64,000 bases of DNA from Reinekea blandensis MED297 (lineage in GTDB: Bacteria; Pseudomonadota; Gammaproteobacteria; Pseudomonadales; Natronospirillaceae). Under the pieces are notes generated by a model. It was not told the origin of the DNA. It did no database searches and saw only the letters and a program-made list of their open reading frames with translations. A program made the translations under genes and the position numbers. The DNA lies in contig NZ_CH724153.1 of NCBI RefSeq assembly GCF_000153185.1, forward strand, positions 446,008-510,007. Reading direction: 5' to 3'. Positions 4,247 to 39,848 of the stretch are shown here, in pieces (within the stretch, counting starts at the first letter, position 1; every line of letters starts with the position of its first letter).

Positions 4247-7200
4247 ATGAGTTTTGGTTCAGGTTTGAGTGGCGTTGCCGCCGCCAATAAAGATTTAAAA
4301 ATCACGGGTAACAACATTGCCAACGCCAGTACGACGGGCTTTAAGGCCAGTCGGGCTGAGTTTGGCGACGCTTACACCACTTCGATTCTGGGCATGGGAC
4401 AAGACCCGATTGGCTCTGGTGTCAATGTCAACAACGTGGGCCAGAAGTTCGAGCAGGGCAATATTTCTCAGACCAACTCTGTGCTGGACCTGGCAATTGA
4501 CGGCAACGGATTCTTTGTCACAGAGTATCCGAACAACTCAGTGACCTACACGCGCTCCGGTATTTTTGGTATCGACAAAGATGGTTACATCGTCAGTAAC
4601 CAGGGTGCGACACTTCAGGGCTTTGGTGTCAATGAAAACGGCATTGTCTCCGGTATTCTGACGGATTTGCGTGTGGATGCCGGCAGTCAGCCTCCGCGTG
4701 GAACCCACGGTGTGGAAGCTCAGGTGAATGTACCGGCGGGTGCTAATGTGCTGCAGTCCATCGGCTCAACGACCCGGACCACCGGTCTGGCTGTCGGTGT
4801 CGCTCAGGTAGGCCCGGCGCAGGATACGACGACGACACTGACTCCAATCGGCATTCCAACAACCGAAGGTACGGCCTCACAAATTGTAGGCGGTCCGATT
4901 GGTTTCTCAGGAACGGTACCGGGGATCAATTTCCCATGGCAGCCCAATACGTCTCAAGCATCATCGACCATCGACTTTACGCTTCAGGGACCGAACATTA
5001 ACGGAGGGTTGTCGCCTCTGACCGCGACCGTTCAACCATTTTCCGATTCCATTATTTATGACGATGTGAATGATCTGGTGTCTTCCATTAACGCCAGCAT
5101 TAATGGCGACCCGGACCTCGCGGGTAAAGTCCAGGCCGTTGTGAACAACTTTGGCGGTATTACTTTTGAGACCGCAGGCACCTATGCGACTGATGGTACC
5201 AACATCGTGTCCATTGCCGATAACGTGAACAATCTCTCTGATCCGGAGTATCTGAACTTCGGCAGTACGGGCGTTACCTTTGCGGGTAACTCCGTGGCCG
5301 GACTGAACATAACCGGTGCGGATACCGGCTCCCGGTTGACGGGTGGTCGCAACCTGAACTCACTCGATTCCACGGTGAACTTCTTCGATGGTGCGGCTGT
5401 CGCCGGTCAGGATCTTGTTTATAACGTCAATATTGGCGGCACTTTGTTTGCTAATGAGACCTTCACGTTCAATGCGGCCGGTTACGCAACTCTTGGTGCG
5501 TTTGCTGCCGATTTGAACGCACAAGCGTCTGCAGGGCTTCAGGCGGAAGGCCAGTTCCAGATTAACGCCGGGCGATTGGAGTTCCAGGTGACCGGTGCCG
5601 GTAACCTGGGACCGACCAACGTGTCCGTGACGGCGGTATCCACTGGGACCACCAGTGCTATCACTATGGATGAGCTGGGTATGACCGGCAATGCCATCTT
5701 CCCTCCAACGTTGACGGAAGGTCAGGCGCAGAACAACTTGATCCAGTTTGATGTGGATGGCTCGATTTCTAACCTAACACTGTCTGCCGTGAATCATGCA
5801 GACCACGACTCATTGGTCGCCGATATTAATGCGCAGATCACCGCCGCCGGTGCCCCGTTGGCTAACGAAGTTGAGGCGTATCACGTCGGTGGTGTACTGC
5901 ACTTTGCACGCATCGATAACCCCACCGTGGGCGATACGTTAAACGTTAACTTTACCGATGGCGCTTTTGTTGAAGATCCGTTAGCTGAGTCCTATATGGG
6001 AGTCGATTCTCCTACGCAATACACCACACCACAAACCGTGTCGGCGGTTGCCGGTCTGGACTTGTTTGCTAACGATGGTTTCATCGATCTGACTTCCGAC
6101 CCGGGTGCCAATGCCACCGTGCAGGCGAACAATCAAACCAATCTGGAGTTCACCGATCAGGTGCCTGGTACATTGACGCAGTTAACGAGCTCCGTTGCAT
6201 TGCCTGCAGCACCGATTGAAGCGACCGCTCCGGGTGGCACGGTGATGGATTTCTCGATGAACTTGGGGGGTGTGACCAGCAACGTGACGTTAGCGGTCCC
6301 AGCCGGTGGTTGGGCGACAACGAATGCCTTTCTGAACGACTTTGAAAACGCCGTAAACTCGCAGCCCGCCTTTACCGCCGCCTACGGTTTGAACTCCGTC
6401 AGTGTGACGGCCGATGCGGTGACCAACCGGATGGAAATCACAGCTGATGATATGGGCATTGGTCCACAAACGATCAGCATTACCGATGTGGGTAGTACTT
6501 CGACAGTGACGCCAACAACCTTGGGCATTGCGACAAACTCCACACCGCAACCCACCACTGTTTTGGGTGAGGCTGTCATTCCATTTGATAACCAGATTGA
6601 AATCTCAATTGATGGTGGCGCCGCTCAGCGCCTGACCATTCCGGAAGGTGTCTACACTACCGAGAATGAGCTGGTCGAGCAGATTCAGAACCTGATTTCG
6701 TCGAACCCGAATCTGGCCGGTGAAGTTTCGGTCTCCCATGTGAACGGCCGACTGATTTTCGAACGAACGGATACCGGGGCATTCCCGCTTGACATAGACG
6801 TCACTGGTACGGCGGCATCGCTGGCGAATCTGGGAATGACCAGCACCACAAAAACGCTGGGTGAAGAACCGATTGATCGCAGTCATTCGTTCCGTATCAA
6901 TCTGACGGTACCACTGCCTGATGAAGAAGGCCGTTCCGGCTCGGTAGCGATCAGCCTCGATGAAACCATTTACTCGGTTGATCAATTGGCGGCGGCGATC
7001 AATCGTGAACTGGCCGCGGTACCGGAAGATGAGTATATCGGCGTTCGAGCCATTGTTGGACGCGACGAAAACGATAACGAAATTTTGGTTTTTGAAGCCA
7101 CTGAAGGTGGGGAAGCGTCGCAGATTTCGATCACCAACATTCAGGCGCCCGGTGATGATCTGGATGTTGAACAGCTTTATGCCTTGCTGCAATCGGACCA

Positions 7201-8665
7201 GTATGAATCTGAGCTGTTAACCATTGGCGAACCGGCGATTACTAACGGTTATCCTGAACAGAGTTTTGTTCTGCTGGATGAAGAAAACGACGTAAGGACC
7301 AACATCACCATCGATGAAGGCACACAGGCGTCAGCCATTGCCTCTCAGCTGTCTGCAAATGCCGGTGTGACGGCCACTGCGGAAACCGATGTCCGGATCT
7401 TGGCAGAAGACTACGTCAACGGCGGTGACATGGAGCTGTACATCAATGGCCAGATCATTGAAGCCAACACGTTCCAGGGCATCGTTGATGAAATCAACAG
7501 CTATTCCGGTACATCATTGAACAGCATCAGTGCTGACCTTGATGATGAAACCGGTGACATCCTCATCAACTCCAGTATCGGTATTGATATCTCGGTCGCT
7601 ATTGAATCGCCTCGCGAGCAGGACGGCTTAACCGTTCAGGGTTATACCGGCACACCACCGGTCACACTGGGGCGGGGCGCGGACGCTGAAACCAATGCGC
7701 GTATTGGTGGCTATGTGGATATCGTCCTCAACGAAGGCTACACCATGACCGAGCCGGACCCTCGTGTCGCGGGTCTGTTTAACGGCCTGACCGAGTCCAG
7801 TTTCGAAGAGTACGTGATCAACGAGTTTAATCCGGACGATCCGGAAACCTACAATGAGTCGGCCTCGTTAACGGTTTACGACTCATTGGGTAACCAGCAT
7901 CGACTGCAGCTGTTTTATGTGAAAGATCCGGAAGATCCGGCTCGCCCGCAGGCTTTGAACAGCTGGACCGTCTATGCACAGATCGACGGTGAGAATGTCG
8001 GTGACCCGGACGCCAGCCTGCCGTTCCCGGAAAACATTGAGCCAACCTATGCGGAGTTCAAACTCTACTTCAATGCCGACGGAACGCTGGATGAAGAGAA
8101 CACCGGTGAATGGCTGATTTCCAACTGGGATCCGGTGGACGAAAACGGCGATTCCAACGGTGCTTACACATCGTTGAACGTGGCTGAAGGCGGCAGCTTG
8201 CCCATACCCGATCCCAACACCAACTCGAACTTCTCCGTCAGCTTTGGTGGCACCACGCAGTACGGCGGACCGTTTGCCCGCTACAACTTCCAGCAGGACG
8301 GCTACGCCAGTGGTCGACTGAAGGATCTGGAGATTGACGATGATGGTACCATCTATGCCCGTTACACCAACGGCGAAGCGCAGGTCCTGGGGCAGGTGGC
8401 ATTGGCATCCTTTGCCAACATGGAAGGGTTAAATCCAGTCGGGCAAACCGAGTGGCAGGAGAGCTTTGAGTCCGGTGATGCCACCATCGGCGAGCCGGGA
8501 ACCGGCTTGCTGGGCACCTTGCAGTCAGCCGCGCTGGAAGATTCAACGGTCGACCTTTCCGAGCAGTTGGTGCATCTGATTATCGCGCAGCGAAATTATC
8601 AGGCCAGCGCCAAGACCATTGAAACGGCCAACGCGGTGACTCAGACGATTATTAATCTGAGGTAA
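4247..8665 (+). CDS. flgE: Giant flagellar hook protein FlgE
   Basis: 1472 aa, compared with about 400-460 aa in most relatives. Residues 1-165 are canonical (SFGSGLSGVAAANKDLKITG, NNIANASTTGFKASRAEF, the DLAIDGNGFF motif). The conventional C-terminal 280 residues resume at FNPDDPETYNESASLTVYDS (nt about 7825) and end with LVHLIIAQRNYQASAKTIET. Between them lie about 1000 extra residues made of successive beta-rich modules with the pattern 'I-x-VDG-x-LT-x-G-x-Y-x-L-x-I-N-x-G-x-V-x-G-L-x-F-x-I-T-LGM', resembling the flagellin/hook IN motif. It is one uninterrupted frame, so not a fusion artefact of two genes. It forms the extracellular universal joint. ATG 4247 follows AGAGGTAACCGC. Confidence 0.95.
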   Translation: MSFGSGLSGVAAANKDLKITGNNIANASTTGFKASRAEFGDAYTTSILGMGQDPIGSGVNVNNVGQKFEQGNISQTNSVLDLAIDGNGFFVTEYPNNSVTYTRSGIFGIDKDGYIVSNQGATLQGFGVNENGIVSGILTDLRVDAGSQPPRGTHGVEAQVNVPAGANVLQSIGSTTRTTGLAVGVAQVGPAQDTTTTLTPIGIPTTEGTASQIVGGPIGFSGTVPGINFPWQPNTSQASSTIDFTLQGPNINGGLSPLTATVQPFSDSIIYDDVNDLVSSINASINGDPDLAGKVQAVVNNFGGITFETAGTYATDGTNIVSIADNVNNLSDPEYLNFGSTGVTFAGNSVAGLNITGADTGSRLTGGRNLNSLDSTVNFFDGAAVAGQDLVYNVNIGGTLFANETFTFNAAGYATLGAFAADLNAQASAGLQAEGQFQINAGRLEFQVTGAGNLGPTNVSVTAVSTGTTSAITMDELGMTGNAIFPPTLTEGQAQNNLIQFDVDGSISNLTLSAVNHADHDSLVADINAQITAAGAPLANEVEAYHVGGVLHFARIDNPTVGDTLNVNFTDGAFVEDPLAESYMGVDSPTQYTTPQTVSAVAGLDLFANDGFIDLTSDPGANATVQANNQTNLEFTDQVPGTLTQLTSSVALPAAPIEATAPGGTVMDFSMNLGGVTSNVTLAVPAGGWATTNAFLNDFENAVNSQPAFTAAYGLNSVSVTADAVTNRMEITADDMGIGPQTISITDVGSTSTVTPTTLGIATNSTPQPTTVLGEAVIPFDNQIEISIDGGAAQRLTIPEGVYTTENELVEQIQNLISSNPNLAGEVSVSHVNGRLIFERTDTGAFPLDIDVTGTAASLANLGMTSTTKTLGEEPIDRSHSFRINLTVPLPDEEGRSGSVAISLDETIYSVDQLAAAINRELAAVPEDEYIGVRAIVGRDENDNEILVFEATEGGEASQISITNIQAPGDDLDVEQLYALLQSDQYESELLTIGEPAITNGYPEQSFVLLDEENDVRTNITIDEGTQASAIASQLSANAGVTATAETDVRILAEDYVNGGDMELYINGQIIEANTFQGIVDEINSYSGTSLNSISADLDDETGDILINSSIGIDISVAIESPREQDGLTVQGYTGTPPVTLGRGADAETNARIGGYVDIVLNEGYTMTEPDPRVAGLFNGLTESSFEEYVINEFNPDDPETYNESASLTVYDSLGNQHRLQLFYVKDPEDPARPQALNSWTVYAQIDGENVGDPDASLPFPENIEPTYAEFKLYFNADGTLDEENTGEWLISNWDPVDENGDSNGAYTSLNVAEGGSLPIPDPNTNSNFSVSFGGTTQYGGPFARYNFQQDGYASGRLKDLEIDDDGTIYARYTNGEAQVLGQVALASFANMEGLNPVGQTEWQESFESGDATIGEPGTGLLGTLQSAALEDSTVDLSEQLVHLIIAQRNYQASAKTIETANAVTQTIINLR

Positions 8666-8676
8666 TCCGCTAAGGG

Positions 8677-9005: not shown

Positions 9006-9749
9006 ATGGATCGTGCTATCTACATTGCGATGACAGGCGCCAAGAACAACATGATGGCGCAGACGTCACATTCCAATAACCTGGCGAACGCCCGAACCTT
9101 TGGTTTTAAAGCCGATTGGGCTCAGGCGCGCGCGATCCCGGTGTGGGGCGAACACCATCCTTCCCGAGCCTTTTCCATGACCGAACGTCCAGCGTCCGAC
9201 TTTAATGACGGCGCCCTGATTGAAACAGGCAACGAACTGGATACCGCCATCACCGGCGATGGTTTTTTTGCCGTGCTTGATGCCGAAGGGCAGGAGGCTT
9301 ACACCCGTCGTGGTGATTTTTCAGTGACACCATTGGGTGAGTTGATCAACGGTGCGGGCGAGTCAGTGATCGGCGAAGGCGGCCCGATTGTGTTGCCGCC
9401 GTATGAAAAAGTCGAGATCGCCGGCGATGGCACCATTTCAATTCGGCCGGCCGGTGCCGGACCTAATGAAATGATCGCCGTTGATGCACTGAAAATAGTG
9501 AACCCAAACTTTCAGGATTTTGAAAAGGGCACAGACGGTTTGTTCCGTCCTGTCGAAGGCGCGCCGATTTTACCGGACGATCCATTACTGAGTGTTGTGT
9601 CCGGTTTTGTTGAAGCGAGTAACGTGAACTCCGTTCATGAGCTGACCAACTTGTTGGCATTGAACCGACAGTACGAAACGCAAGTGAAGATGATGAAGAC
9701 TGCCGATGATGTCTCTAGAGCATCCGAGCGGATTCTGCAATTGAGTTAA
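9006..9749 (+). CDS. flgF: FlgF, flagellar proximal rod protein
   Basis: 247 aa, canonical. N-terminal axial motif MDRAIYIAMTGAKNNMMAQ followed by HSNNLANARTFGFKADW, the central GDGFFAV motif, and a C-terminal segment with VHELTNLLALNRQYETQVKM. Rod component in the periplasm. Preceded by AGGAGG. First gene of the second flagellar unit. Confidence 0.95.
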   Translation: MDRAIYIAMTGAKNNMMAQTSHSNNLANARTFGFKADWAQARAIPVWGEHHPSRAFSMTERPASDFNDGALIETGNELDTAITGDGFFAVLDAEGQEAYTRRGDFSVTPLGELINGAGESVIGEGGPIVLPPYEKVEIAGDGTISIRPAGAGPNEMIAVDALKIVNPNFQDFEKGTDGLFRPVEGAPILPDDPLLSVVSGFVEASNVNSVHELTNLLALNRQYETQVKMMKTADDVSRASERILQLS

Positions 9750-9818
9750 ACAATCGATTTGTTTCAGTCGCTGCGCACACTGAACCGAACGTCGCAGCAG
9801 GCTTGAGAGGGTAACAAT

Positions 9819-10604
9819 ATGCACAAGGCATTATGGGTCGGAAAAACGGGTTTGGAAGCGCAGGACATTGCGCTGTCGACCATTTCCAATAACCTGGCAA
9901 ACGCGGCAACCACGGGTTACAAAAAAGAACGGGCGGTCTTTGAAGACCTGATTTATCAGGTGCAGCGGCAGCCCGGTGCACAAAGCTCACAAAATACGCA
10001 GCTGCCTTCGGGTCTGCAGTTGGGTACCGGGGTTCGAACTGTTGGCACGCAAAAGCAGTTTGTCCAGGGCGATCTGAACATGACGGAACAACCGCTGGAC
10101 ATGGCGATTAACGGCCGCGGTTTCTTTCAGGTGTTGATGCCGGACGGCAACATCGCTTATACCCGAGACGGTACTTTTCACCTCGATGCTGAAGGTAATG
10201 TGGTGACGGCCAATGGATACTTTCTGGAACCCAACATTCAGGTACCGGAACAGACCAAAACCATCACCGTCGGCACCGATGGCATCGTGACTGCGGTCTC
10301 GGCCGGGGACAATGATCCGGTCGAAATCGGCAATATCGACATTGTCGACTTTGTTAACCCGGCCGGTTTACAGGCTATCGGTAATAACCTGTTTCTGGAA
10401 ACGGCAGCCAGTGGCGCTCCGGCAGAAGGCGTCCCCAGCTTGGACGGTTTCGGTTCCATCATCCAGGGCGCACTGGAAAATTCGAACGTGACGATTGTGG
10501 AAGAAATGGTCGATATGATTTCGACCCAGCGTGCCTACGAAATGAATTCAAAGGCGGTCAGTACTGCCGACCAGATGCTTGGATTCATTACGTCGAATCT
10601 CTAA
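9819..10604 (+). CDS. flgG: FlgG, flagellar distal rod protein
   Basis: 261 aa, the standard length, which sets distal rod geometry. Motifs: ALWVGKTGLEAQDIALSTIS, NNLANAATTGYKKERAVFED, MAINGRGFFQV, and the C-terminal NVTIVEEMVDMISTQRAYEM. Located in periplasm and outer membrane, joining rod to hook. AGAGGG ribosome-binding site. The ordinary size contrasts with the giant FlgE it supports. Confidence 0.96.
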   Translation: MHKALWVGKTGLEAQDIALSTISNNLANAATTGYKKERAVFEDLIYQVQRQPGAQSSQNTQLPSGLQLGTGVRTVGTQKQFVQGDLNMTEQPLDMAINGRGFFQVLMPDGNIAYTRDGTFHLDAEGNVVTANGYFLEPNIQVPEQTKTITVGTDGIVTAVSAGDNDPVEIGNIDIVDFVNPAGLQAIGNNLFLETAASGAPAEGVPSLDGFGSIIQGALENSNVTIVEEMVDMISTQRAYEMNSKAVSTADQMLGFITSNL

Positions 10605-10637
10605 GTACGCAGAATAACGGCTAAGGGGGCCAGTATT

Positions 10638-11327
10638 ATGTCAATTCTCAGAAATTTGCTCATAGGGCTGACAGCGGTGATCATGACCGGCTGCGGTTCC
10701 ATGCAGATTGCGAACCTGCCGTCCCCGCCGCAGCCGGGTGATCCGGAGTTCGCACCGGTACCGTCTGATTCACTGGTGCCACCACCGAACACCGGAGGCT
10801 CGCTCTATGCTGATGCTTACGGCATGAGTTTGTACGGGGACAAAAAAGCCCGTCGGGTGGGTGACATCATTACGGTATTGTTGGATGAACAGACGCAGGG
10901 CAGCAAATCGTCAGCGTCCAACACCAGCAAGACCAGTGAAGCTACGATCTCGGCCCCCTCGGTGGGTGGTATCGGCCCGATTGATCAACTCGGCGCATCG
11001 ATTCAGGGGGATCGCTCGTTCAGTGGACGTGGTGATGCGGATCAGTCGAACTCTCTGTCTGGTAACATCACGGTCACGGTTTCAGAAGTTCTACCCAATG
11101 GTGTCTTGCGCGTTCGCGGTGAAAAGTGGATCACGCTAAACAACGGGTCCGAGTTCATTCGCATTCAGGGCATGTTACGTCCGGATGATATTAACCTCGA
11201 TAACACTGTATCCAGTCAGAAACTTGCCGACGCGCGCATTTCATACAGCGGGGCCGGTGCCATCGCTAACTCCAGCAAACAGGGCTGGCTCAGCGCTTTT
11301 TTTAACTCACCGGTCTTTCCGTTCTAA
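10638..11327 (+). CDS. flgH: FlgH, flagellar L-ring lipoprotein
   Basis: 229 aa. A lipoprotein signal peptide with lipobox IMTGC (Cys at about residue 19) precedes a mature chain with the family features SLYGDKKARRVGDIITVLLD, SGRGDADQSNSLSG and ITVTVSEVLPNGVLRVRGEK, ending FFNSPVFPF. Forms the L-ring in the outer membrane. Its usual partner flgI does not follow directly: two regulatory genes intervene. Confidence 0.95.
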   Translation: MSILRNLLIGLTAVIMTGCGSMQIANLPSPPQPGDPEFAPVPSDSLVPPPNTGGSLYADAYGMSLYGDKKARRVGDIITVLLDEQTQGSKSSASNTSKTSEATISAPSVGGIGPIDQLGASIQGDRSFSGRGDADQSNSLSGNITVTVSEVLPNGVLRVRGEKWITLNNGSEFIRIQGMLRPDDINLDNTVSSQKLADARISYSGAGAIANSSKQGWLSAFFNSPVFPF

Positions 11328-15809: not shown

Positions 15810-18800
15810 ATGAGTCTATTAAGTACAGCCATCACGGGAATCAAAGCGCATCAGACCGCGCTGGAAACCACAGGTCATAACATTTCCAATGCCAACACGC
15901 CCGGCTATTCGCGCCAGGAAGCGGTGATGGCCACCAATAATCCGCTGTTTCGAGGCGTGGGTTATATTGGTCAGGGTGTTAATATTTCGACCGTCCGTCG
16001 GGTGACCGATGAGTTTCTCACCATTCAATTGCGCCAGGACACCTCGACTTTCCACGATTTACAGACCTATCGGGAAAGCATCGAACAGGTCGACCGTATT
16101 CTGGCCGATGATGCGACTGGGCTTCAGCCTCAGCTGGATCGTTATTTCGCCGCATTGCAAGGCGCAGCTGACAACCCGGCTTACATTCCCTCGCGTGATG
16201 TCGTTCTCGGCGAAGCGCAGGGGTTAGTGGACAGGTTTGAAACCATCTCGCGATACCTTCAGGACATCAACAGCACTTTAAACGGGCAGCTGAAAACCTC
16301 CACCGAGCAGGTAAATGCCATTGCAAAAGGCATTGCCGAGCTGAACGAGGAAATTGTTACGGCACGCGGTGATGCCGCGGCACAACCGCCCAACGACCTT
16401 TACGATAAACGGGATGAACTGGTTCGTCAGCTGTCAGAGTTGGTCGAAGTCGACGTGGTAAAAGTGGGTGAAACCTACAACATCGCCATAGGCAATGGAC
16501 AGCCTCTGGTACTGAAATACGACGCGAATCGCCTGGAAGCAACCCCCAGTCTGGAAGACCCGAACCGGTATGGCATTCGTTATACCAGTAAGACTGAAAA
16601 CCTCGACATTACCGACAACATCACCGGCGGCTCCATTGGTGGGCGGCTTGAGTTTCGTTCAGAAGCCTTAGACCTGGCAGTCAATAGCCTGGGTCGACTG
16701 GCTGTCGCCTTCGTTCAGGAAACGAATGCTCAGCATAAGCAGGGGATTGACCTGGAGGGTCGGTTTGGTAACGACTTTTTCCGTGATATGAACGACCCGT
16801 CACTGACCGGTGATCGTGTATATGCCTACGGCACCAATAAACCGCCAAACGATCGTGTGTTTAATGTTACCTTCGAAAACACCAAAGAGCTGACCACCAG
16901 TGAGTACACCCTGAATTTGCCCGGCCCGGATGCGTCACGGTTTGAGGTGATTCGAAAATTCGATGGTAAGGTGGTTGAAGAGGGTGCGCTGACCGGTGAT
17001 TATCCGCAGGCGATTGAGTTTGACGGGCTCAAGGTCACCTTGGAATCGGGCACCTTCCAACAGGGGGATACCTTTACCATCGCGCCATTGAGATTCGCCG
17101 CCGAAGACGTTGAGAAAATGATCCAACGTCCGGCCGAGTTGGCGCTGGCGTATCCAGTGCGCGCCGAATCCAGCTTAAGTAATGTCGGCAGTGGATACAT
17201 CGACCAAGGCCAGATGCTCAGTCGGGACTCGAAAGCGTTTGCCGTTGATGGGGCATTGACGCCGCCGCTGGTGATTAAGTTTGAAAGCCCGACACGCTAT
17301 TCGGTCTACGACAACTCTGACCCCGGAAGGCCGGTACCACTGGAGCCGCCGTTGGAAAATATTCCCTTTGTACCGGGTACGGCCAACACCATTTTTACAG
17401 ATGATCCCGGCGAAACCATCGTCAGTTCCTGGCGGGCACGGTTACCACAAACACCCGCGATCGGAAATGGTGGACCGTCCACAGCTTACCTTTACAACGG
17501 CATTAATCCGGAACGATTTCAGTTCTTTCAAACCGATCCGGTGACCGGCAAAGAAACAGAGCTGGATCGGGTTTCGACTGGATACGGCGCATCTGCCTAC
17601 GAAATTGCTGAGGAACTGAACCTGGTTGAGGGCGTCACAGCAAGAGCCTATACCGAAGTACAGCTCAGTAATTTCAGTAACTCAACGGATACCTCGGGTG
17701 CGCCAACTTACAACCCGCATAACCCGATGGAAGTCTGGGTGAACGGGTTTGAGCTGACGCAGGAGATTCCGAACCAGAATCAGAACATCTACATGGACGG
17801 TTTTCCGGTTGAAGTGCCTGAAGAGATGAATCCAAACTTCCTGGCGGATCGAATTAACCATCATTATGAACTGCAGCAGTTGGGGATTACTGCTAAGAGC
17901 GATGGTGAAACGCTGACCATTACCGATGAAAACGGCAATGACATCTTGGTTGAAATGCGGGGCGATAAACCGCAACCAGTGATTTCCGGAGCGCCTGTGT
18001 TGCCTCCAGGCATTCCTGGCAATGTGACGGACTACATCGATCCGGGCGATACCTTTGAAATCAGTACCGGCGAAAGCTGGTCAGTTGATCCCTTTGAGGG
18101 AAATACGAACGGTCAACTCAGTAATCTGAACGGTTATGATTTCTCCGAAGGCGGGCCGTACCGATATGAAATGTATCTGCCAGACGGTCGAACGGGGACC
18201 GTCCGATTGGATGGCATCTATGCCGATGGTGACGCCGTCAAGGCCGCCTTCGAAGAACAGATTCAAGCGCAACTGGATAGCCCGGGTCGAGCCGAGGTTG
18301 ACATCGATGAGCAGGGTAACGTCAGCTACAAAGTGTTTATGCGAGTCGAAGGGACCGGCACCCAGGCGGTGTCGCGAGTCAATGTCGGAGGTCAGGTCGA
18401 TGTCGTGATGGCCGATGGCATTCGGTTGGAAACCGATCCGGAAGTCGGGGGCATCTTCAATGGTGTACCAGACGCGCGCTCATCTTATATGGGGTTTCAG
18501 TTTCAAGTTGGTGGTCGTCCCGAAGCCGGCGACGAGTTCACCATTGAATGGAACGATGCGGGTGTGTCAGACAACCGAAATGCCTTAGACCTAGTGGGAT
18601 TAGAAACCACTGATACCATTAATGACATCGACGGCGGGATGACCTTCACGGAATCTTATAGCCAAACGGTCGAGCAAATTGGCACCCTGACAAGCCAGGC
18701 TCAAATCCGTTCGGATGCATCACGCGCTGTTTTGGAAGGCACGCAATCTGAAGTCGATTCCGTGCAAGGCGTTAATCTGGACGAAGAAGCCGCCAGACTG

Positions 18801-18887
18801 ATCGAGTTCCAGGTGGCTTATAACGCAAATGCCAAGGTCATCGCCGTTGCACAAGAACTGTTTGATTCGATTTTGGCGGCGTTTTAA
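15810..18887 (+). CDS. flgK: Enlarged hook-filament junction protein FlgK (HAP1)
   Basis: 1025 aa, about twice the usual 450-680. N-terminal axial domain canonical (LLSTAITGIKAHQTALETTG, HNISNANTPGYSRQEAVM), through the coiled D1 part with DDATGLQPQLDRYFAALQGA. C-terminal axial domain canonical (GVNLDEEAARLIEFQVAYNA, ending ELFDSILAAF). Roughly residues 340-960 hold the expansion: beta-rich segments such as FNVTFENTKELTTSEYTLNL, FDGLKVTLESGTFQQGDTFT and ETLTITDENGNDILVEM, the same style as in FlgE and FliD. It joins hook to filament outside the cell. Confidence 0.94.
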   Translation: MSLLSTAITGIKAHQTALETTGHNISNANTPGYSRQEAVMATNNPLFRGVGYIGQGVNISTVRRVTDEFLTIQLRQDTSTFHDLQTYRESIEQVDRILADDATGLQPQLDRYFAALQGAADNPAYIPSRDVVLGEAQGLVDRFETISRYLQDINSTLNGQLKTSTEQVNAIAKGIAELNEEIVTARGDAAAQPPNDLYDKRDELVRQLSELVEVDVVKVGETYNIAIGNGQPLVLKYDANRLEATPSLEDPNRYGIRYTSKTENLDITDNITGGSIGGRLEFRSEALDLAVNSLGRLAVAFVQETNAQHKQGIDLEGRFGNDFFRDMNDPSLTGDRVYAYGTNKPPNDRVFNVTFENTKELTTSEYTLNLPGPDASRFEVIRKFDGKVVEEGALTGDYPQAIEFDGLKVTLESGTFQQGDTFTIAPLRFAAEDVEKMIQRPAELALAYPVRAESSLSNVGSGYIDQGQMLSRDSKAFAVDGALTPPLVIKFESPTRYSVYDNSDPGRPVPLEPPLENIPFVPGTANTIFTDDPGETIVSSWRARLPQTPAIGNGGPSTAYLYNGINPERFQFFQTDPVTGKETELDRVSTGYGASAYEIAEELNLVEGVTARAYTEVQLSNFSNSTDTSGAPTYNPHNPMEVWVNGFELTQEIPNQNQNIYMDGFPVEVPEEMNPNFLADRINHHYELQQLGITAKSDGETLTITDENGNDILVEMRGDKPQPVISGAPVLPPGIPGNVTDYIDPGDTFEISTGESWSVDPFEGNTNGQLSNLNGYDFSEGGPYRYEMYLPDGRTGTVRLDGIYADGDAVKAAFEEQIQAQLDSPGRAEVDIDEQGNVSYKVFMRVEGTGTQAVSRVNVGGQVDVVMADGIRLETDPEVGGIFNGVPDARSSYMGFQFQVGGRPEAGDEFTIEWNDAGVSDNRNALDLVGLETTDTINDIDGGMTFTESYSQTVEQIGTLTSQAQIRSDASRAVLEGTQSEVDSVQGVNLDEEAARLIEFQVAYNANAKVIAVAQELFDSILAAF

Positions 18888-19072: not shown

Positions 19073-20329
19073 ATGGTCGACAGAGTCTCAACCTATTGGA
19101 CGTTTCAGCGTCCAGTAAATGACATGCTCCGACTGCAATCGAACCTGAACAAAACATCAGAACAGATTGCCAGCGGGAAAAAAATGCTGTCACCGGCTGA
19201 TGATCCAGTGGGGGCAGCCCGTGTGCTGCAATTGGATCAGGAAATCGCACTGCTGAATCAGTACGAGAGGAACATAACCCTGCTGGACTCCCGTCTTGAG
19301 CAGGAAGAGGGCGTGCTGGATGGCGTCACCTCGGTACTGCAACGGGTTCGCGAGCTGACTGTGCAGGCGGGTAATGCCGCTGTTTATTCCGAATCAGAAC
19401 GGCAGGCCATTGCTCTGGAGCTGGATGAGCGGCTTAAAGAGCTTTTCGACCTGGCCAACAGTCGGGACGGCAGCGGTGAGTATCTGTTTTCCGGTTTCCA
19501 GGGTGAAAAGCAGACCTTCGTTCAGAACCCGGGTGGTGGTTATGGTTATCAGGGGGATGAAGGCGTTCGTTTTCTGCAGATCAGTCGTACCATTACCATG
19601 GCTTCTGGCGATACGGGAAAAGACATCTTCATGGATGTACCTGCCACCGTACCATCGTTTAACAGCTATGCGAGCAATGAGAATCGAGGCAATCCACCGG
19701 GGATTATTTCTCAGGGTATTACTGTCGATCAGGAAGCATTGGATGAGTTTTTCCCGGAAAATGCGGTAATCACCTTCGAAAACCCGTTAGACGTGGACCC
19801 GCCTCGAAAGAACTACACCGTTCGTCAAAAGTCAGACGGCCGGGTCATCGACGGATTAGAAAACATTCCCTACAACTCGGGTTCTCCCATCGGGTTCGCC
19901 GGGATGAATGTCAATGTTATCGGGAATCCGGCACCGGGTGATCAATTTATCGTCGAGACCTCTCCCTCTCAGAACATGATGGTCACTGTCGAAAAGCTGA
20001 CTTTTGCGCTGAACAACTACAGCACCTCGCCTGAGTTTTCTGATGTGTACGACACGGCGATTTCCAATACATTGGAAAACATCGACAATGCCTTACAGAA
20101 TGTCTCTCAGGTTCGTGCCAGAATCGGTGCTCGGCTCAATACCACCGAAAATACGGCAAATCAACATGCAGATAACAAGCTGGCAGCGCAGGATATCCGG
20201 GCAGATATCCGTGATCTCGACTATGCTGAAGCGGTAAGTCGGCTGCAGCTGGAAGAGTTTATTTTGCAGGCGACCCAGCAGAGTTTTGCAACGACAACCC
20301 AATTGAACCTGTTTGATTTTATCCGCTAG
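19073..20329 (+). CDS. flgL: FlgL, hook-filament junction protein (HAP3)
   Basis: 418 aa, moderately longer than the enteric 317 aa but within the Pseudomonas/Vibrio range. N-terminal flagellin-like domain (LQSNLNKTSEQIASGKKMLS, PADDPVGAARVLQLDQEI) and C-terminal flagellin-like domain (DLDYAEAVSRLQLEEFILQA, ending TTQLNLFDFIR). The central insert contains a segment (KNYTVRQKSDGRVIDGLENI...PGDQFIVE) similar in style to the FlgK insert. AAGGAG lies before ATG 19073. It connects FlgK to the flagellin filament. Confidence 0.95.
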   Translation: MVDRVSTYWTFQRPVNDMLRLQSNLNKTSEQIASGKKMLSPADDPVGAARVLQLDQEIALLNQYERNITLLDSRLEQEEGVLDGVTSVLQRVRELTVQAGNAAVYSESERQAIALELDERLKELFDLANSRDGSGEYLFSGFQGEKQTFVQNPGGGYGYQGDEGVRFLQISRTITMASGDTGKDIFMDVPATVPSFNSYASNENRGNPPGIISQGITVDQEALDEFFPENAVITFENPLDVDPPRKNYTVRQKSDGRVIDGLENIPYNSGSPIGFAGMNVNVIGNPAPGDQFIVETSPSQNMMVTVEKLTFALNNYSTSPEFSDVYDTAISNTLENIDNALQNVSQVRARIGARLNTTENTANQHADNKLAAQDIRADIRDLDYAEAVSRLQLEEFILQATQQSFATTTQLNLFDFIR

Positions 20330-20704: not shown

Positions 20705-20760
20705 CATTCTAAATGATTCGGGCATAATCGGTCGTTCGAGTGGGAATAGGCGAGACGGAA

Positions 20761-25725: not shown

Positions 25726-25755
25726 AACGCCCTGAGGTGAGAAGAGGCTCGAAAC

Positions 25756-26835: not shown

Positions 26836-26838
26836 ACG

Positions 26839-27558: not shown

Positions 27559-27569
27559 CAGAGGCGGTC

Positions 27570-28889: not shown

Positions 28890-28908
28890 TGAAAAATGCG
28901 GTACTTGA

Positions 28909-29670: not shown

Positions 29671-29680
29671 TGGCTCACTG

Positions 29681-32621: not shown

Positions 32622-34865
32622 ATGCCTCAAATTATTAACACAAACATTGCTTCCTTAACGGCACAACGTAATTTGAACACTTCTCAAGGTGCGAACGCTA
32701 CAGCTCTTGAGCGTCTGTCTTCAGGTTTACGTATTAACAGTGCTAAAGATGACGCAGCCGGTCTGGCCATTTCTACCAAGTTTGAATCTCAGGTGAAAGG
32801 TCTGAACGTCGCTATTCGTAACGCAGGGGACGGTATCTCATTGGCTCAGACAGCGGAAGGTGCGCTGGGGTCGATGACTGAAAACCTGCAGCGGATTCGT
32901 GAGCTGGCGGTACAGTCCTCTAACGCCACCAACTCTGACGATGACCGAGTTGCACTGCAACAGGAAGTTAAACAGCTCATGGCTGAAGTCAGCCGTACGG
33001 CTTCTGAAACCAACTTTAACGGCCGTAACCTGCTGGATGGTACCTTTAAGGGGACTTTCCAGATTGGCGCCGACGCTGGCCAGACGGTCGACGTACAGAT
33101 TTCTGAGCTCACTGCGGAAAAACTGGGTGCTTCCGACCAGGTTGGTGTGTCCTCTATCGGCACCGACTACGGCATATCCAATGGCGACCTGGTGTTGAAT
33201 GGTGTCCAAATCGGCCCTTCTTCTGCTACGGACGACACCGCATCCACTATCGGTGGTGACGCCTCAGCCATTGCGAAAGTGGCGACCATCAACCGCTACA
33301 GCGATGAGACTGGTGTTACTGCGTTTGCCAATGAAAACGAAGTGAACGGCTCTACCATGGCAGCAAACGGTGGTACAACCGCGACCGTGATTCTGAATGG
33401 CGTCAGCATTAATCTGCAGGCCACCACGAACAACAATGACGTGGAGAAAGCGGCGACTCGTCAATCGGTTATTGAAGCAATCAACGCCAAGTCCGACCAG
33501 ACAGGTGTTGTTGCGACCGATGGTGGTAACGAAAACGGTGTAATTCTGACTGCCGAAGACGGTCGTAACATTACTCTGACCAGTGGTGCTACTCAGATTA
33601 CTGAAGAAGCCTTCGGTCTGGGTACAGTGCATACTGCCGCTGCAGCACAAACCACCGGTACATCGGTCGGTGTGTATGAAGCCGGCTTTACTCTTGTAGC
33701 AAATGGCGATACCAAAACGATCAATATCGAAGGTGGTGATGGTACTGGTACCGGCGATCTTGCGAATACTGGTCTGACAGAAGGTAGTTACAAGCGTGAA
33801 ACGTCGGTTTACTCTACCGAAGCCGTTACCGTGACTTCTGCCACGGCGGCAACGGCCGCCCGTGTAACTAACGTTGCCATTGCTGAAGGTGACTTGGTGA
33901 TCAACGGCGTAACCATCGGAGCGTCTTCTTCAGTGGACGATAAAGCTTCGGATACGGTTGCGAACTCCTCTGACGCTTCTGCTTCCGGTATTGCCGTTGC
34001 CGCCGCTATTAACCGTTCTGCAGATGACACCGGTGTAACCGCCTACGTCAATGAAACCGTTGTAGTGGGTGTCACGGGTGCTGCAACTGCAGCAACTGCT
34101 GGGGATAGCATCGGCATCATGATCAACGGCGTAGACATCGGTGATGTTGTGTCGCAAGGCGATATACAGAAAGACCGCGCAGCGACCATTGATGCGATTA
34201 ACAACAAGTCGGGTCAAACTGGTGTGATGGCAACCGATAACGGTGAAGGTATTACCTTGACAGCAGCCGACGGTCGAAACATTTCCGTTGCGCTGGTTGA
34301 AACGGGTGCCGGAACGGCTGCTCAGGGGCAGTTCGGCCTGAGTGAAACCGTCGACGGTATTGGTGCGATTGCGGATGGCGCTACGTCAACCCTGGCAGCT
34401 GCCACGTTCGATACTGGTGCTTCGACTACTTACTCAACGGTTCGTTTGGAGTCTGCGGGTACCATCGATATCGATGCTGGATCTAACGGTACAACAGGTT
34501 TGACTGACACTGGTTTTGCACGAGGTGAGTACGGTGGGGGCATGGACGGTACCTACCTTAAGGATGTGGATATCTCTACGTTCCAGGGTGCACAGGATGC
34601 CATTACAGCCATCGATAACGCCTTGAAGACGGTGGCCAGTCAGCGAGCAGAGCTCGGTGCCTTGCAGAACCGATTCGAGTCGACCAGCTCTAACCTTCAG
34701 ATTACCTCTGAAAACCTGGCGGCTGCGAACTCTCGAATCCGGGATGCGGACTTTGCAGCGGAAACTGCTGAACTGTCCCGAACCCAGGTACTGCAGCAGG
34801 CTGGTATTTCGATTCTGGCCCAGGCTAACCAGCGACCACAGCAGGTACTGTCACTGCTCGGTTAA
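32622..34865 (+). CDS. fliC: Large flagellin FliC
   Basis: 747 aa, compared with about 280-500 in most relatives. D0/D1 N-terminal (QIINTNIASLTAQRNLNTSQ, LERLSSGLRINSAKDDAAGL) and C-terminal (ENLAAANSRIRDADFAAETA, ending QQVLSLLG) domains are canonical. Residues about 187-640 form the surface region and consist of two homologous halves: NGDLVLNGVQIG (187) to TGLTEGSY, and EGDLVINGVTIG (422) to TGLTDTGF, each with IN-type blocks such as AINRSADDTGVTAYVNE and TAADGRNI. The many Ser and Thr in this region are potential glycosylation sites. AGGAG precedes ATG 32622. It is the only flagellin gene in the window. Confidence 0.96.
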   Translation: MPQIINTNIASLTAQRNLNTSQGANATALERLSSGLRINSAKDDAAGLAISTKFESQVKGLNVAIRNAGDGISLAQTAEGALGSMTENLQRIRELAVQSSNATNSDDDRVALQQEVKQLMAEVSRTASETNFNGRNLLDGTFKGTFQIGADAGQTVDVQISELTAEKLGASDQVGVSSIGTDYGISNGDLVLNGVQIGPSSATDDTASTIGGDASAIAKVATINRYSDETGVTAFANENEVNGSTMAANGGTTATVILNGVSINLQATTNNNDVEKAATRQSVIEAINAKSDQTGVVATDGGNENGVILTAEDGRNITLTSGATQITEEAFGLGTVHTAAAAQTTGTSVGVYEAGFTLVANGDTKTINIEGGDGTGTGDLANTGLTEGSYKRETSVYSTEAVTVTSATAATAARVTNVAIAEGDLVINGVTIGASSSVDDKASDTVANSSDASASGIAVAAAINRSADDTGVTAYVNETVVVGVTGAATAATAGDSIGIMINGVDIGDVVSQGDIQKDRAATIDAINNKSGQTGVMATDNGEGITLTAADGRNISVALVETGAGTAAQGQFGLSETVDGIGAIADGATSTLAAATFDTGASTTYSTVRLESAGTIDIDAGSNGTTGLTDTGFARGEYGGGMDGTYLKDVDISTFQGAQDAITAIDNALKTVASQRAELGALQNRFESTSSNLQITSENLAAANSRIRDADFAAETAELSRTQVLQQAGISILAQANQRPQQVLSLLG

Positions 34866-35364: not shown

Positions 35365-35394
35365 AAAAAAAACCGCCGTAAGGCGGTTTTTTTT
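35364..35394 (+). terminator. Rho-independent terminator after flaG
   Basis: AACCGCC, loop GTAA, GGCGGTT followed by an uninterrupted T tract, preceded by an A tract that overlaps the flaG stop. It is a strong, probably bidirectional terminator. Confidence 0.92.
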
Positions 35395-35416
35395 GCTGAG
35401 TGCTTCGGGCTGCGAG

Positions 35417-35769: not shown

Positions 35770-35829
35770 TCCTTGACAGAGTCGTCAGGAAAATAACACT
35801 GTTCGCCGCAGCCCGCAGCCCAACAAACC

Positions 35830-35856
35830 TAAAGTTTTCGAGAATCCTGCCGCTAT
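35830..35856 (+). promoter_or_regulatory. Sigma-28 (FliA) promoter for fliD
   Basis: A perfect -35 TAAAGTTT (35830-35837), an 11-nt spacer and -10 GCCGCTAT (35849-35856), compared with the consensus TAAAGTTT-N11-GCCGATAA. It lies about 80 nt before the fliD ATG. Confidence 0.82.
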
Positions 35857-35936
35857 AAAGTTCAGCAGATAGTCTATCTTTACCCCATTGGTAAAGTTCT
35901 TGCTATCAAAAAGTGTTCGATTAATAGGGTATTCGC

Positions 35937-38900
35937 ATGGCTGGCATTCAATCTCTCGGTATCGGTTCAGGGCTGCTGACGTCAGAACTCGTCGAACAGT
36001 TAGTTGAAGCGGAACGGGCGGCAAGTGATCTCCGCCTGGATACAAGAACGGCTCGGGTTGAGGCGAAAATTACCGCTTATGCGGAAGTGCGTAATATGCT
36101 TGATGGATTGTCTTCGAGCATTTCCAGCCTGTCACAAGCTGCCACCATCCAAAGTTCTTCGGCGACTTCCTCAAATGATTCGGTTCTGACGGCTTCTACC
36201 AGTAGTACGGCAGAACCGGGATCTTATCGAATAAATGTTGATGAAATAGCTAAATCTCACTCGCTGGCCAGCAAACAGTACAACTCCGTCGATGACACCA
36301 TTGGTACCGGTACACTTACCTTTAAGTTCGGTACCACCAATTACGATACGGATAACAGTTATCTGAGCTTTGAACAAAGCGCTGATTCTGAAGTCACCAG
36401 TATCGAGATCAATTCGGAGAACAATACGCTTGGTGGTGTGCGTGATGCTATTAATAACGCGGACTTTGGTGTCAGCGCGTCTGTTGTTTATGACGGAACC
36501 GGCTATCGCTTGCTGTTGACCAGTGACGAAACCGGCGAAGAAACCAGTATGGAGATTACAGCTTCCGGTGATGCTGGACTGCAAGCATTAGCCTATAACG
36601 GGGCACAAAATACAGCCGGCACAAACATGGAAGAGACCCAAAAAGGCTCCGATGCCTCTGTCCGTATCAATGGCCTTGCCATCACCAGCACCGATAACAG
36701 CCTGGACCAAGTCATTAAAGGCGTCACCATTAACCTGACGGAAACCAGTGACAGTGCTGTGACTTTAAATGTCAGCCGTGACGTTAGCGATATTGCGGAT
36801 AAGATTGATACTTTCGTTGAAAAATACAATGAGTACAAAGGACTGTATGACGAATTAACCAAGTACGACCCATCAGATGAAATCGGTGGCATTTTGCTGG
36901 GCGATAATGTGTTGCGTACCGTTCAAACTCAATTAAGGGCCGGTATATCCGAAGTCATAACCGGTCTTACAGGATCGAGTTACTCATCGATGATTGAAAT
37001 CGGTTTGTCGACTGACCAGAACGATGATTTTAATCTGGTGTTCAACCGTGCCAAGTTCGAAGAAGCCATGGCCAACGATGCGAAAAGTGTGGTGGGTTTG
37101 TTGGCAACAGACAAGCAAGCCAGTGATGCACAAATCAGTGTGGTGACCGTTGGGCCAAACACGCAACCGGGTAGCTACGATGTCAATATTACCAAAGCCG
37201 CGACTCAGGGAACCTACACCGGTCTATCGTCAGCAGCTTTAAGTTTTGCGGACGATGTAATTGTTTCCGATCTGAACGATCAGTTTTCTATGAACATCGA
37301 TGGAACCAGTAAGCTTGTCTCTTTGGAGCAGGGCACCTACAGCTCTGGTGAAGACCTGGCGTTAATGTTACAGACTTCCATCAACAGTGCATTCGTCGGT
37401 CAAAGTGTCACTGTGGATTTTGATGATGCTAATGATCGTTTTAATATCACTTCAAGCAAGTTTGGTAGCTCCTCCTCGGTCAGCTTCGGCGGTGGTGATG
37501 CGCTGGTTGCGGATACTTTTGGTTTTGCCACGGCAGGTAGTGGTCAGTATGCCGGTGCGTACTTCTCTACGTTGAACGACGCGGCTTTTGCTGCATCAAC
37601 AGCACCGGGTACTCAAGCCTTAGGGGCCGAAGAAGGTGTCGACTTTTCCACCAATCCTGTGTCGTTTGATATTACGGTTAATGGTACCGGCTCATCTGAA
37701 GACGGTATAACGAAATCGATCACCTTGGATGAAGACTGGGCCGATGTGTTAGACACCGATGGCGAGATTGTGACTGACCGAGATCGCGCAGATGTTCTGA
37801 CTTATATTCAGAGTGAGTTGAATAACGCTGGGTTAGCCGGTGTGGTCACTGCTGAGTTTAACAGCAGCGATCGTTTGGTATTTCGAACCGATCCCGCGGC
37901 AGGTTCGCAGAGCATTACCATCGCGAATACCTCGGTAACAGGTGTAGATTACTTGGGGATTACCGACGGTACGACAAGCTCTGGCGTGAGTGTCACTTCA
38001 AATAGCTTCGATCTTTCTTACAGCAATCGCTATGGATCCGTCAGCTCAGCGGCGACAATTAATGTCCCCGATGGAAACTATGAAACTGCAGCCGATCTGG
38101 CCGCTGCAATGGAAAGTGCCATTAATGCGGATCCAAATATTGCAGCAGGTGCCCAAGGGGCCATGACTGAAAAAGGGTCGCGCGATATAGGTTCGGCAAT
38201 TGATTTCTCTTCGGATGAAGCGCAGTTTGTTTTCTCTTTGAACGGTACCGATTTTGAAGTCACGGTGAATGCGAATGGTGCTGATAACCTAGATTCTATT
38301 CAAACGGCCATCGATACTTCATTGATCGCTGGTGGGGCCAGTGCCGGTGACGTAGTTGCAAGTCTGGACAGTAATGGTCTGGTGTTGACGACAGCCGCGA
38401 CGGGAGCGTCTGAGACGTTGGAAGTCAAGCGAGACGGCATTGGTGCGACCACTGCGCCAGGAACCGTTGACCTATCAACGGGTGTCGATTTTTCGGCAAC
38501 ACCGGCAACCTTTAGTTTATTGGTTGATGGTCAAAGTATTGACGTTACCGTTAATGGCGATGGCACGGCGGGATCAAATGATGGTGAGTCCAACCTGTCC
38601 GTAATTCAACAGGCATTAGATACCGCGCTTTCCGCGGCTGGCGGTGGCGGTGAGTTTTCAGCAGGTGACGTTGTTGCCAAACTTGACAGTTCTAACCAAC
38701 TTTATTTCGAAACCGTCTCCAAAAACGGGGTGGCTACTGAAACCACATTTGGAGCGGACGCTTCTATTCAGATAACGTCGGCTGATGCTAATGCCAATAG
38801 TGCTTTAGGGGTCTCCGCAGGTACGCCCAATGTGAATGGTTTCGACGGGTTTGGATTGGACAAAGGTGTCTACACTGGCTTCGATTCACAAGCCAGCGTG

Positions 38901-39848
38901 AGTTATCAGGCCGATGAGGATGGCAAAGGTCGATTCGTCATCAGTTTCGACAACAGCACTAATATCACGCTCAGCAACGTCTCGAACAATGCCATTGCTC
39001 AGTTGGGGATGTCGAGTAGCAACCAGGCTGTCAACGATTCAACAAGTGGTCAGGATGTCGAAGGGACCATTAATGGCGTGGAAGCCACCGGTCGAGGGCA
39101 ATATTTGACCGCGTCTGAAGGCAATGAAGCGGCGACCAACGGGTATCTGCTTGGTGGAACGGGATCTGACTTTTCCTCCGCAGAAATTATTGATGGCTCA
39201 AACAATACGTTGAAAGTTGTGATTGATGGCGTGGAAACCAACACAGTGACATTGACCAGCGGCGCTTATGCTTCTGGCGATGCGTTGGCCGCTGAACTGA
39301 AAGCACAAATCAATGCCGATTCAAACCTGCAGGCAGCGAACAAAGCTGTCGATGTTCAATATGATGAAGACACTGCGACATTCGGGATATTCTCTATCTC
39401 TAAAGGGGCTGAGTCGACGGTACGAGTCTCTGAAATTGCCAGTGGCGCTATTGATGTCTTTGGCTTCACGACCTCAACGCAGGGCGTGAAAGGTAAAGAT
39501 ACGGTTGGATCTGTGGATGAGGCTGCCGGGTTGATGCTGAAAGTCACAGGCACTCGAACGGGTGACCGTGGCAGCGTGTCGTATGTCGAAGGCGTGATGA
39601 AAAAGCTGGATGATCTGTTTGATAGCATCCTCAATGCCAATGGATTGTTGACGGTGAAAGAGCAGAACCTCGAAGACGAAATGGATGACATCGAGGTAGA
39701 ACGCACTGAGGTCGATGAGCGTACCGCTGCTTTTGAAGCGAGGTTACGCTCTAAGTTTCTGTATAACGATAAACTCATCAGTCAGTTGAAAACAACCGAA
39801 GACTTTTTAACTCAGCAGTTTGAAGCGATGAATGCTTCGAAAGAATAA
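35937..39848 (+). CDS. fliD: Giant filament cap protein FliD (HAP2)
   Basis: 1303 aa, nearly three times the usual 450-680. Residues 1-100 are the FliD N-terminal domain (GIQSLGIGSGLLTSELVEQL). The first part of the FliD C-terminal domain runs to FEEAMANDAKSVVGLLA at about 390, and the last part resumes at about 1198 (GLMLKVTGTRTGDRGSV, YVEGVMKKLDDLFDSILNAN) with the coiled-coil end. About 800 residues (395-1195) are inserted within that C-terminal domain as roughly six beta-rich IN-like modules, e.g. FSMNIDGTSKLVSLEQGTYS, FSLNGTDFEVTVNANG, LKVVIDGVETNTVTLTSGAY. It caps the filament and folds flagellin outside the cell. No fliS or fliT follows. Confidence 0.95.
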   Translation: MAGIQSLGIGSGLLTSELVEQLVEAERAASDLRLDTRTARVEAKITAYAEVRNMLDGLSSSISSLSQAATIQSSSATSSNDSVLTASTSSTAEPGSYRINVDEIAKSHSLASKQYNSVDDTIGTGTLTFKFGTTNYDTDNSYLSFEQSADSEVTSIEINSENNTLGGVRDAINNADFGVSASVVYDGTGYRLLLTSDETGEETSMEITASGDAGLQALAYNGAQNTAGTNMEETQKGSDASVRINGLAITSTDNSLDQVIKGVTINLTETSDSAVTLNVSRDVSDIADKIDTFVEKYNEYKGLYDELTKYDPSDEIGGILLGDNVLRTVQTQLRAGISEVITGLTGSSYSSMIEIGLSTDQNDDFNLVFNRAKFEEAMANDAKSVVGLLATDKQASDAQISVVTVGPNTQPGSYDVNITKAATQGTYTGLSSAALSFADDVIVSDLNDQFSMNIDGTSKLVSLEQGTYSSGEDLALMLQTSINSAFVGQSVTVDFDDANDRFNITSSKFGSSSSVSFGGGDALVADTFGFATAGSGQYAGAYFSTLNDAAFAASTAPGTQALGAEEGVDFSTNPVSFDITVNGTGSSEDGITKSITLDEDWADVLDTDGEIVTDRDRADVLTYIQSELNNAGLAGVVTAEFNSSDRLVFRTDPAAGSQSITIANTSVTGVDYLGITDGTTSSGVSVTSNSFDLSYSNRYGSVSSAATINVPDGNYETAADLAAAMESAINADPNIAAGAQGAMTEKGSRDIGSAIDFSSDEAQFVFSLNGTDFEVTVNANGADNLDSIQTAIDTSLIAGGASAGDVVASLDSNGLVLTTAATGASETLEVKRDGIGATTAPGTVDLSTGVDFSATPATFSLLVDGQSIDVTVNGDGTAGSNDGESNLSVIQQALDTALSAAGGGGEFSAGDVVAKLDSSNQLYFETVSKNGVATETTFGADASIQITSADANANSALGVSAGTPNVNGFDGFGLDKGVYTGFDSQASVSYQADEDGKGRFVISFDNSTNITLSNVSNNAIAQLGMSSSNQAVNDSTSGQDVEGTINGVEATGRGQYLTASEGNEAATNGYLLGGTGSDFSSAEIIDGSNNTLKVVIDGVETNTVTLTSGAYASGDALAAELKAQINADSNLQAANKAVDVQYDEDTATFGIFSISKGAESTVRVSEIASGAIDVFGFTTSTQGVKGKDTVGSVDEAAGLMLKVTGTRTGDRGSVSYVEGVMKKLDDLFDSILNANGLLTVKEQNLEDEMDDIEVERTEVDERTAAFEARLRSKFLYNDKLISQLKTTEDFLTQQFEAMNASKE

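Follow-up and report, generated by a model that had tools for sequence, protein, structure and literature searches.

Three papers form the background to the case presented below. In Salmonella, FlgE, FlgK, FlgL and FliC form continuous protofilaments (PMC12221982). The hook protein FlgE of Campylobacter jejuni carries two extra domains, D3 and D4, which add contacts and make the hook more robust and stronger (PMC5097172). Flagellins of more than 1000 amino acids (aa) are termed giant, and those of two marine Oceanospirillales form filaments of at least 30 nm, against 24 nm in Salmonella, the DE region of giant flagellins having no significant matches outside flagellins (Thomson et al., 2018, PMC6248924). 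That paper asks, and leaves unanswered, whether other flagellar components are correspondingly large, and FliD and FlgK go unmentioned in its main text. Accounts of giant flagellins accompanied by an enlarged hook or cap protein were not among the matches listed, in a search that left subscription papers mostly uncovered, so absence in print is unproven. The present analysis concerns the flagellar locus in a stretch of 64,000 nucleotides of Reinekea blandensis MED297 (the window; contig C3 of a 4.53 Mb assembly), where hook, first junction protein, main flagellin and cap are enlarged. Their outer domains were probably added through two shared families of modules, building a matched, thicker surface. 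The four genes are:

4247..8665, + strand: flgE, hook protein, 1472 aa; core 1-165 and about 1190-1472, insert about 166-1189
15810..18887, + strand: flgK, hook-filament junction protein 1, 1025 aa; insert about 430-979
32622..34865, + strand: fliC, main flagellin, 747 aa; insert 143-660
35937..39848, + strand: fliD, filament cap, 1303 aa; insert about 395-1239

The coordinates and lengths of these open reading frames (ORFs) had been given exactly in the first-pass annotation, and its description of the termini as unaltered is borne out by Pfam and NCBIfam, which find ordinary axial domains at both ends of all four proteins. FlgE contains Flg_bb_rod, D1, FlgE_D2 and Flg_bbr_C in order, scores 435.8 bits against NF004238 (cut-off 400) and is encoded between flgD and flgF; its named relatives are two Reinekea and three Saccharospirillum records. 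FlgK joins the FlgK helical domain to a bbr_C end, scores 343.8 bits against TIGR02492 (cut-off 170.75), and its gene precedes flgL. FliD possesses both FliD_N and FliD_C. None of the four proteins contains cysteine.

Two module families in the outer domains

The same annotation had allowed that the inserts might prove unrelated. This is refuted by two modules: module A is common to FlgE, FlgK and FliC, and module B to FlgE and FliD. Self-comparison shows internal repeats in FlgE, FliD and FliC, and none that is convincing in FlgK. The copies of module A are:

7214..7750, + strand: FlgE module A, residues 990-1168; matches the Pseudomonas FliC D2/D3 fold and FlgK 563-793
17484..17975, + strand: FlgK module A, residues 559-722
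33171..33722, + strand: FliC module A copy 1, residues 184-367
33948..34475, + strand: FliC module A copy 2, residues 443-618; tandem duplicate of copy 1

In the family of the window genome (f1; the other families of the order bear similar labels), FlgE 1000-1198 matches FlgK 563-793 at 97%. The two inserts also match in f35 (96%) and, among mid-sized proteins, in f41, f10, f5, f16 with f19 and f29, and part of f13 (80-99%). An iterated profile seeded from FlgE and FlgK of three genomes converged on a single module of about 200 positions, represented by 44 FlgE, 38 FlgK, 94 FliC and 4 FlgL stretches. With the FlgE and FlgK profile, 45 of the 61 FliC proteins pass an expectation value (E) of 1e-3, while FlgE or FlgK proteins lacking module A reach 0.15 at best. 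Profiles built from one protein find the others (best E between 9e-10 and 3e-30, decoys clean); the FliC-only profile, for instance, detects FlgE of the window genome at 3e-12 and its FlgK at 3e-10, and the FlgE and FlgK profiles match each other at 99.9%. Other ORFs of the studied loci match module A at E < 1e-3 as well (8 with the FlgE and FlgK profile, 11 with the FliC profile), and among the matches listed their size is that of second flagellin genes.

The FliC modules were first gathered by an iterated profile that already included FlgE and FlgK, and the single-protein profiles were built from such mixed collections, so circularity is lowered in these figures and still present. Two results are independent of it. 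One is the fold: the predicted model of FlgE module A takes the D2/D3 fold of Pseudomonas aeruginosa FliC (8erm, 8sug), a filament domain which here forms part of the hook protein and, judging from sequence, also of FlgK. The other is profile A6, which rests on an alignment of FlgE and FlgK only; in 38 genomes outside the order it matched just two frames, both close to fliD of the same genome, whose size (504 and 509 aa) and place make them probably flagellins. Sequence searches of the PDB gave only chance-level rows of ribosomal proteins for module A (E 0.59 and above) and no flagellin at E ≤ 1 for A6.

The tandem repeat of FliC (176-394 and 411-641) may be equated with DE from its position and tandem order. 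As in the giant flagellins (PMC6248924), the host belongs to the marine Oceanospirillales, two tandem modules, here putatively of DE type, lie between D0/D1 ends, and growth is step-wise; unlike the DE region reported there from flagellins only, the related module is here also part of FlgE and FlgK.

Module B, of about 110 aa, was seeded from FliD and then found in FlgE:

4952..5302, + strand: FlgE module B copy 1, residues 236-352; weak, domain E 5e-5 and 0.002
5396..5686, + strand: FlgE module B copy 2, residues 384-480; domain E 1e-6 in one search, unreported in the own-genome search
5723..6025, + strand: FlgE module B copy 3, residues 493-593
6245..6550, + strand: FlgE module B copy 4, residues 667-768
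6590..6859, + strand: FlgE module B copy 5, residues 782-871
6878..7150, + strand: FlgE module B copy 6, residues 878-968
37245..39518, + strand: FliD module B, seven stretches, residues 437-547, 566-687, 687-740, 750-843, 845-973, 981-1047 (one search only) and 1078-1194

Cross-protein comparison in f1 aligns FlgE 494-826 with FliD 445-738 at 97%. A six-frame search of the window's own genome places all 12 module B rows with E ≤ 0.002 in FlgE or FliD; the thirteenth is FlgK, at 0.08. Over all proteins, 173 FliD, 84 FlgE, 9 FlgK and 4 FliC stretches were collected. The comparison system for this module is the sheath domain of contractile phage tails (Pfam DUF3383; phages E217, 8env, and XM1, 7kh1): the best four of eight PDB rows by sequence are phage sheath proteins (E 0.012-0.17), and the model of FlgE 639-772 resembles phage tail sheath folds and, more weakly, FliD D2-D3. 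When ten modules (eight from the window) were scanned singly, DUF3383 matched only FliD copy 1 of the window, at 25.2 bits, below the cut-off of 34.9. A BFVD fold search with the FlgE model listed 50 rows with TM-scores of 0.03-0.31, including one tail sheath protein at rank 48. A match to phrog_19400, whose function is unknown, is also seen for 12 of 29 module B copies (window 37245-37577 and others), at best with 5.3e-7.

Lengths across the order and their coupling

The search for FlgE covered 245 genomes of the order, 178 of which have the protein; in a phylum sample, 148 of 199 genomes have it. FlgK, FliD and Flagellin_N frames were measured in 80 order genomes hand-picked to span families and FlgE sizes, and DNA loci were compared for 77 of these plus the window (G060 and G125 not included). 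Lengths were counted from the first possible start and, for some genomes, filled from open frames; where several flagellins were present, the longest was taken for lengths and the best-scoring for modules. The FliC of G074, at a contig end, was left out, neither fliC nor fliD was found in G165, and the FliD frame of G102 is cut.

Among the matches listed, FlgE exceeds 900 aa only in f1 (11 genomes), f35 (9), f8 (1) and f36 (2), and outside the order none in the phylum sample is above 799 aa. Median lengths in f1, f35 and the remaining families (f8 and f36 excluded) are, respectively, 1461, 1209 and 447 aa for FlgE, 1020, 991 and 670 for FlgK, 1304, 1317 and 518 for FliD, and 976, 1190 and 509 for FliC, compared with 418, 412 and 412 for FlgL and a constant 261 for FlgG. 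Throughout f1 the frames are uninterrupted: in 11 genomes FlgE has 1213-1587 and FlgK 1004-1030 aa, and FliD, which was found in 10 of these, has 1292-1328 aa. This recurrence in relatives rules out an assembly artefact. The flagellin of the window had been likened to giant flagellins; it is indeed enlarged, although its 747 aa fall short of the 1000 aa threshold; other members of f1 reach 1191 aa. In locus L075 (G199), the fliC product is 2154 aa long and has two copies each of modules A and B, and the FlgE beside it has 1348 aa.

A tree of FlgF, FlgG, FlgH and FlgI from 75 genomes (G117, G025 and G088 are absent, their flgF-I lying outside the stretch used) joins f1 and f35, with support 1.0, into a single clade and places f8 and f36 elsewhere. 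Independent contrasts on log length over 72 tips gave correlations of 0.77 for FlgE-FlgK, 0.66 for FlgE-FliD, 0.56 for both FlgK-FliD and FliD-FliC, 0.44 for FlgE-FliC and 0.35 for FlgK-FliC. FlgL is less tied to FlgE (0.24), FlgK (0.37), FliD (0.05) and FliC (0.02), and FlgE is uncorrelated with FlgF, FlgG, FlgH and FlgI (-0.05 to 0.12). The largest partial correlations, FlgE-FlgK 0.60, FliD-FliC 0.39, FlgE-FliD 0.35 and FlgK-FlgL 0.33, indicate separate couplings with the hook as a bridge. The first-pass annotation had proposed that the whole surface evolved as one unit, to be abandoned if lengths varied independently. Across the order the lengths are coupled after correction for the tree and a jointly built surface is supported; within f1 they are partly independent, since FlgE (1213-1587 aa) and FliC (745-1191 aa) vary while FlgK and FliD are nearly constant, and FlgL is an exception. 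The surface is thus no single strict unit, its couplings (hook with junction; hook with cap and cap with filament) being partly separate. Independent lengthening of each protein is ruled out by the shared modules and the contrasts.

In 76 genomes with both proteins, module A occurs in FlgE and FlgK together in 38, in FlgE only in 6 (f17 and f3, where FlgK is short and the FlgE insert has no match to it), in FlgK only in none and in neither in 32. One parsimony reconstruction places 10 changes in FlgE and 11 in FlgK; 8 of these coincide in both branch and direction. At least two A modules in FliC accompany module A in FlgK in 29 genomes (FlgK only 6, FliC only 1, neither 24), and at least two B modules in FlgE accompany at least three in FliD in 21 (discordant 1 and 3, neither 39). 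A tree of 99 modules from 31 chosen genomes groups the FlgK modules in one clade (0.94) beside those of FlgE, with the FliC modules apart. Two FlgE modules of f17 fall among those of FliC (0.80), which may possibly reflect a second transfer, and two FlgL modules adjoin one FliC module (0.82).

Exceptions and competing explanations

The other axial genes, the second flagellin and a set of sugar genes are as follows:

3390..4136, + strand: flgD, hook-cap scaffold, 248 aa; ordinary or slightly long
9006..11327, + strand: flgF, flgG and flgH, rod and ring proteins, 247, 261 and 229 aa; ordinary
19073..20329, + strand: flgL, junction protein 2, 418 aa, not enlarged
20740-32439: genes for the synthesis of sugar acids (NeuB, DegT aminotransferase, UDP-GlcNAc 2-epimerase, cytidylyltransferase) and for a Maf glycosyltransferase
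G000:C5:100012-100398 (L007:1093-1938), - strand: orphan second flagellin, 281 aa, core domains only, without outer domain

Rod and ring proteins had been described as ordinary, which holds for those listed and for FlgI (364 aa) and FlgJ (310 aa); FlgD, also called ordinary, is so with the qualification that it is slightly longer in the giant families (median 250 in f1 and 262 in f35 vs 226 elsewhere). The accompanying statement that all external axial proteins are enlarged fails, as it omitted the external FlgL and as the genome also encodes the 281-aa flagellin. These two rule out enlargement of every exposed part. Other f1 genomes, as well as G035, G005, G045 and G019, have Flagellin_N frames near the size of the orphan flagellin. 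The gene next to it on contig C5 is presumably serine hydroxymethyltransferase-like. Between flgH and flgI lie a sigma-70 family gene (11472-12491, - strand; RpoS/RpoD-like, below NCBIfam cut-offs) and a MerR-type regulator gene (12598-13395, + strand).

Several observations weigh against a matched surface built from shared modules. FlgL, placed between FlgK and the filament, departs from the rule of a whole enlarged surface in f1 and f35 (412-423 aa across the 20 genomes measured); conversely, enlarged forms occur in part of the f13 and f17 genomes and in f16, f19 and f29. FlgL measures 766-769 aa in L135 and L136 (G019 and G029, both carrying module A) and in G016:C26. The modules are not strictly sorted, given weak A matches in FliD (one with the FlgE and FlgK profile, 1.2e-4; six with the FliC-only profile, best 1.3e-6) and B in a few FlgK and FliC. 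Most of the FlgK insert lies outside A or B, with module A accounting for 164 residues. In f8, single-sequence comparison matches the FlgE insert to neither the FlgK nor the FliD insert, its module A members being recovered by the deeper iterated profile, and in the window genome A6 does not report FliC at E 0.01. After tree correction, module A of FliC is weakly coupled to that of FlgE (0.22, p 0.08) and FlgK (0.28, p 0.03). Among the structure models, that of FlgE has a mean predicted local distance difference test (pLDDT) of 56.7 and a predicted template modelling score of 0.25, and that of FlgK, with a pLDDT of 39.7, is unusable. Outside the order, FlgE and FlgK are not significantly coupled (rho 0.23, p 0.14) in 44 genomes compared without tree correction (45 hand-chosen; G347 dropped, its FlgK frame being at a contig start; one value where a genome had two), nor are FlgE-FliD (0.30, p 0.09) and FlgK-FliD (-0.30, p 0.09; n 34). 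A general law across the phylum is therefore unsupported.

Inheritance could account for the pattern: the ancestor of f1 and f35 would have acquired all enlargements, duplication-prone repeats would have grown neutrally, and the correlations would reflect history, not joint function. Of the 23 genomes whose FlgE exceeds 900 aa among the matches listed, 20 belong to the f1 and f35 clade, the FlgK modules form one clade, and FlgE and FliC of f1 vary independently of FlgK and FliD. However, the contrasts persist in the 55 tips without these families (FlgE-FlgK 0.75, FlgE-FliD 0.54, FlgK-FliD 0.47, FliD-FliC 0.59), and separate joint changes are seen in f36, f32, f13 and f16/f19/f29, which makes a purely historical account rather unlikely; transfer of the whole flg operon, on whose genes the tree was built, could explain FlgE-FlgK, and less so fliC-fliD. 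It is very improbable that the likeness of the A modules is convergence on a beta fold like that of Flagellin_IN (PF07196). This short motif does occur in FliC, FliD and, weakly, in the FlgE and FlgK modules (E ≤ 0.05 in 15 of 16 FliC, 11 of 19 FliD and 1 of 20 FlgE), exceeds its cut-off in the window FliC (27.4 vs 22.7 bits), and modules A and B are weakly alike (65% and, over 13 columns, 71%). Nonetheless, it spans 55 residues as against 110-200 for the modules, stays at 14.9 bits in module A of the window FlgE, and is matched by only 11 of 43 FlgE and FlgK A modules at E ≤ 0.1; the mutual detection by single-protein profiles, the FlgE-FlgK profile match and the narrow range of A6 outside the order argue for common descent.

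A doubtful alternative is that the enlarged domains mainly bear glycans and charge, for adhesion or escape from flagellum-binding phages or grazers, the exposed parts being covered alike. The nonulosonic-acid-type sugar cluster and the Maf glycosyltransferase between flgL and fliC suggest a glycosylated flagellin, and the inserts are acidic (12.6% D+E in FlgE) and poorer in Lys/Arg than the cores (2.2-5.8% vs 4.5-8.8%). Against this, Ser/Thr/Asn are no higher in inserts (20-28%) than in cores (19-28%), FlgL is equally exposed and yet not enlarged, and a link to enlargement of the sugar genes, which were examined in the window locus, would be conjectural.

A proposed matched outer layer and its implications

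The explanation by shared modules builds on the observed module relationships, copy numbers and co-occurrence and on one predicted fold. The inserts would be outer domains hung on a conserved D0-D1 tube, with a flagellin D2/D3-type module A present as one copy each in FlgE and FlgK and as two copies in FliC, and with repeats, in both FlgE and FliD, of a module B that resembles domains of phage sheaths and D2/D3 of FliD. Continuous protofilaments in Salmonella (PMC12221982) make FlgE and FlgK direct neighbours; together with their mostly joint gain and loss of module A, this points to matched outer layers of hook and junction. The cap would enlarge with module B as the filament thickens, and the FlgL ring may stay core-sized because it is flanked by outer domains of FlgK and FliC. 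As in Campylobacter FlgE, a hook protein likewise enlarged outward (PMC5097172), the added layers could give extra contacts along and between protofilaments, yielding a thicker, stiffer and stronger continuum of hook, junction and filament. From these two systems and the giant filaments of at least 30 nm (PMC6248924) we infer the contacts, diameter and strength of the enlarged flagellum, with an outer layer that gains in thickness and strength all the way from hook to cap. The roles suggested in the first-pass annotation, a sheath-like outer layer, adhesion or shielding from phages, are conjectural. More tentatively, this layer might be a replaceable coat, whose domains move between axial genes (a flagellin coat domain to hook and junction, a phage-tail-sheath module to hook and cap), so that parts are re-coated together and the inner export tube is unchanged.

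For this order, the question raised in 2018 on the size of the remaining flagellum is answered: hook, first junction protein and cap are enlarged, and the second junction protein mostly is not. A putatively DE-type domain, a kind reported only from flagellins, is also a domain of the hook and of FlgK. With sister genomes differing in just these modules, the order provides a natural experiment in how adjacent parts of a tube that assembles itself remain compatible as their outer layers change, and a FlgE of up to 1587 aa is a stern test of the passing limit of the flagellar export channel.

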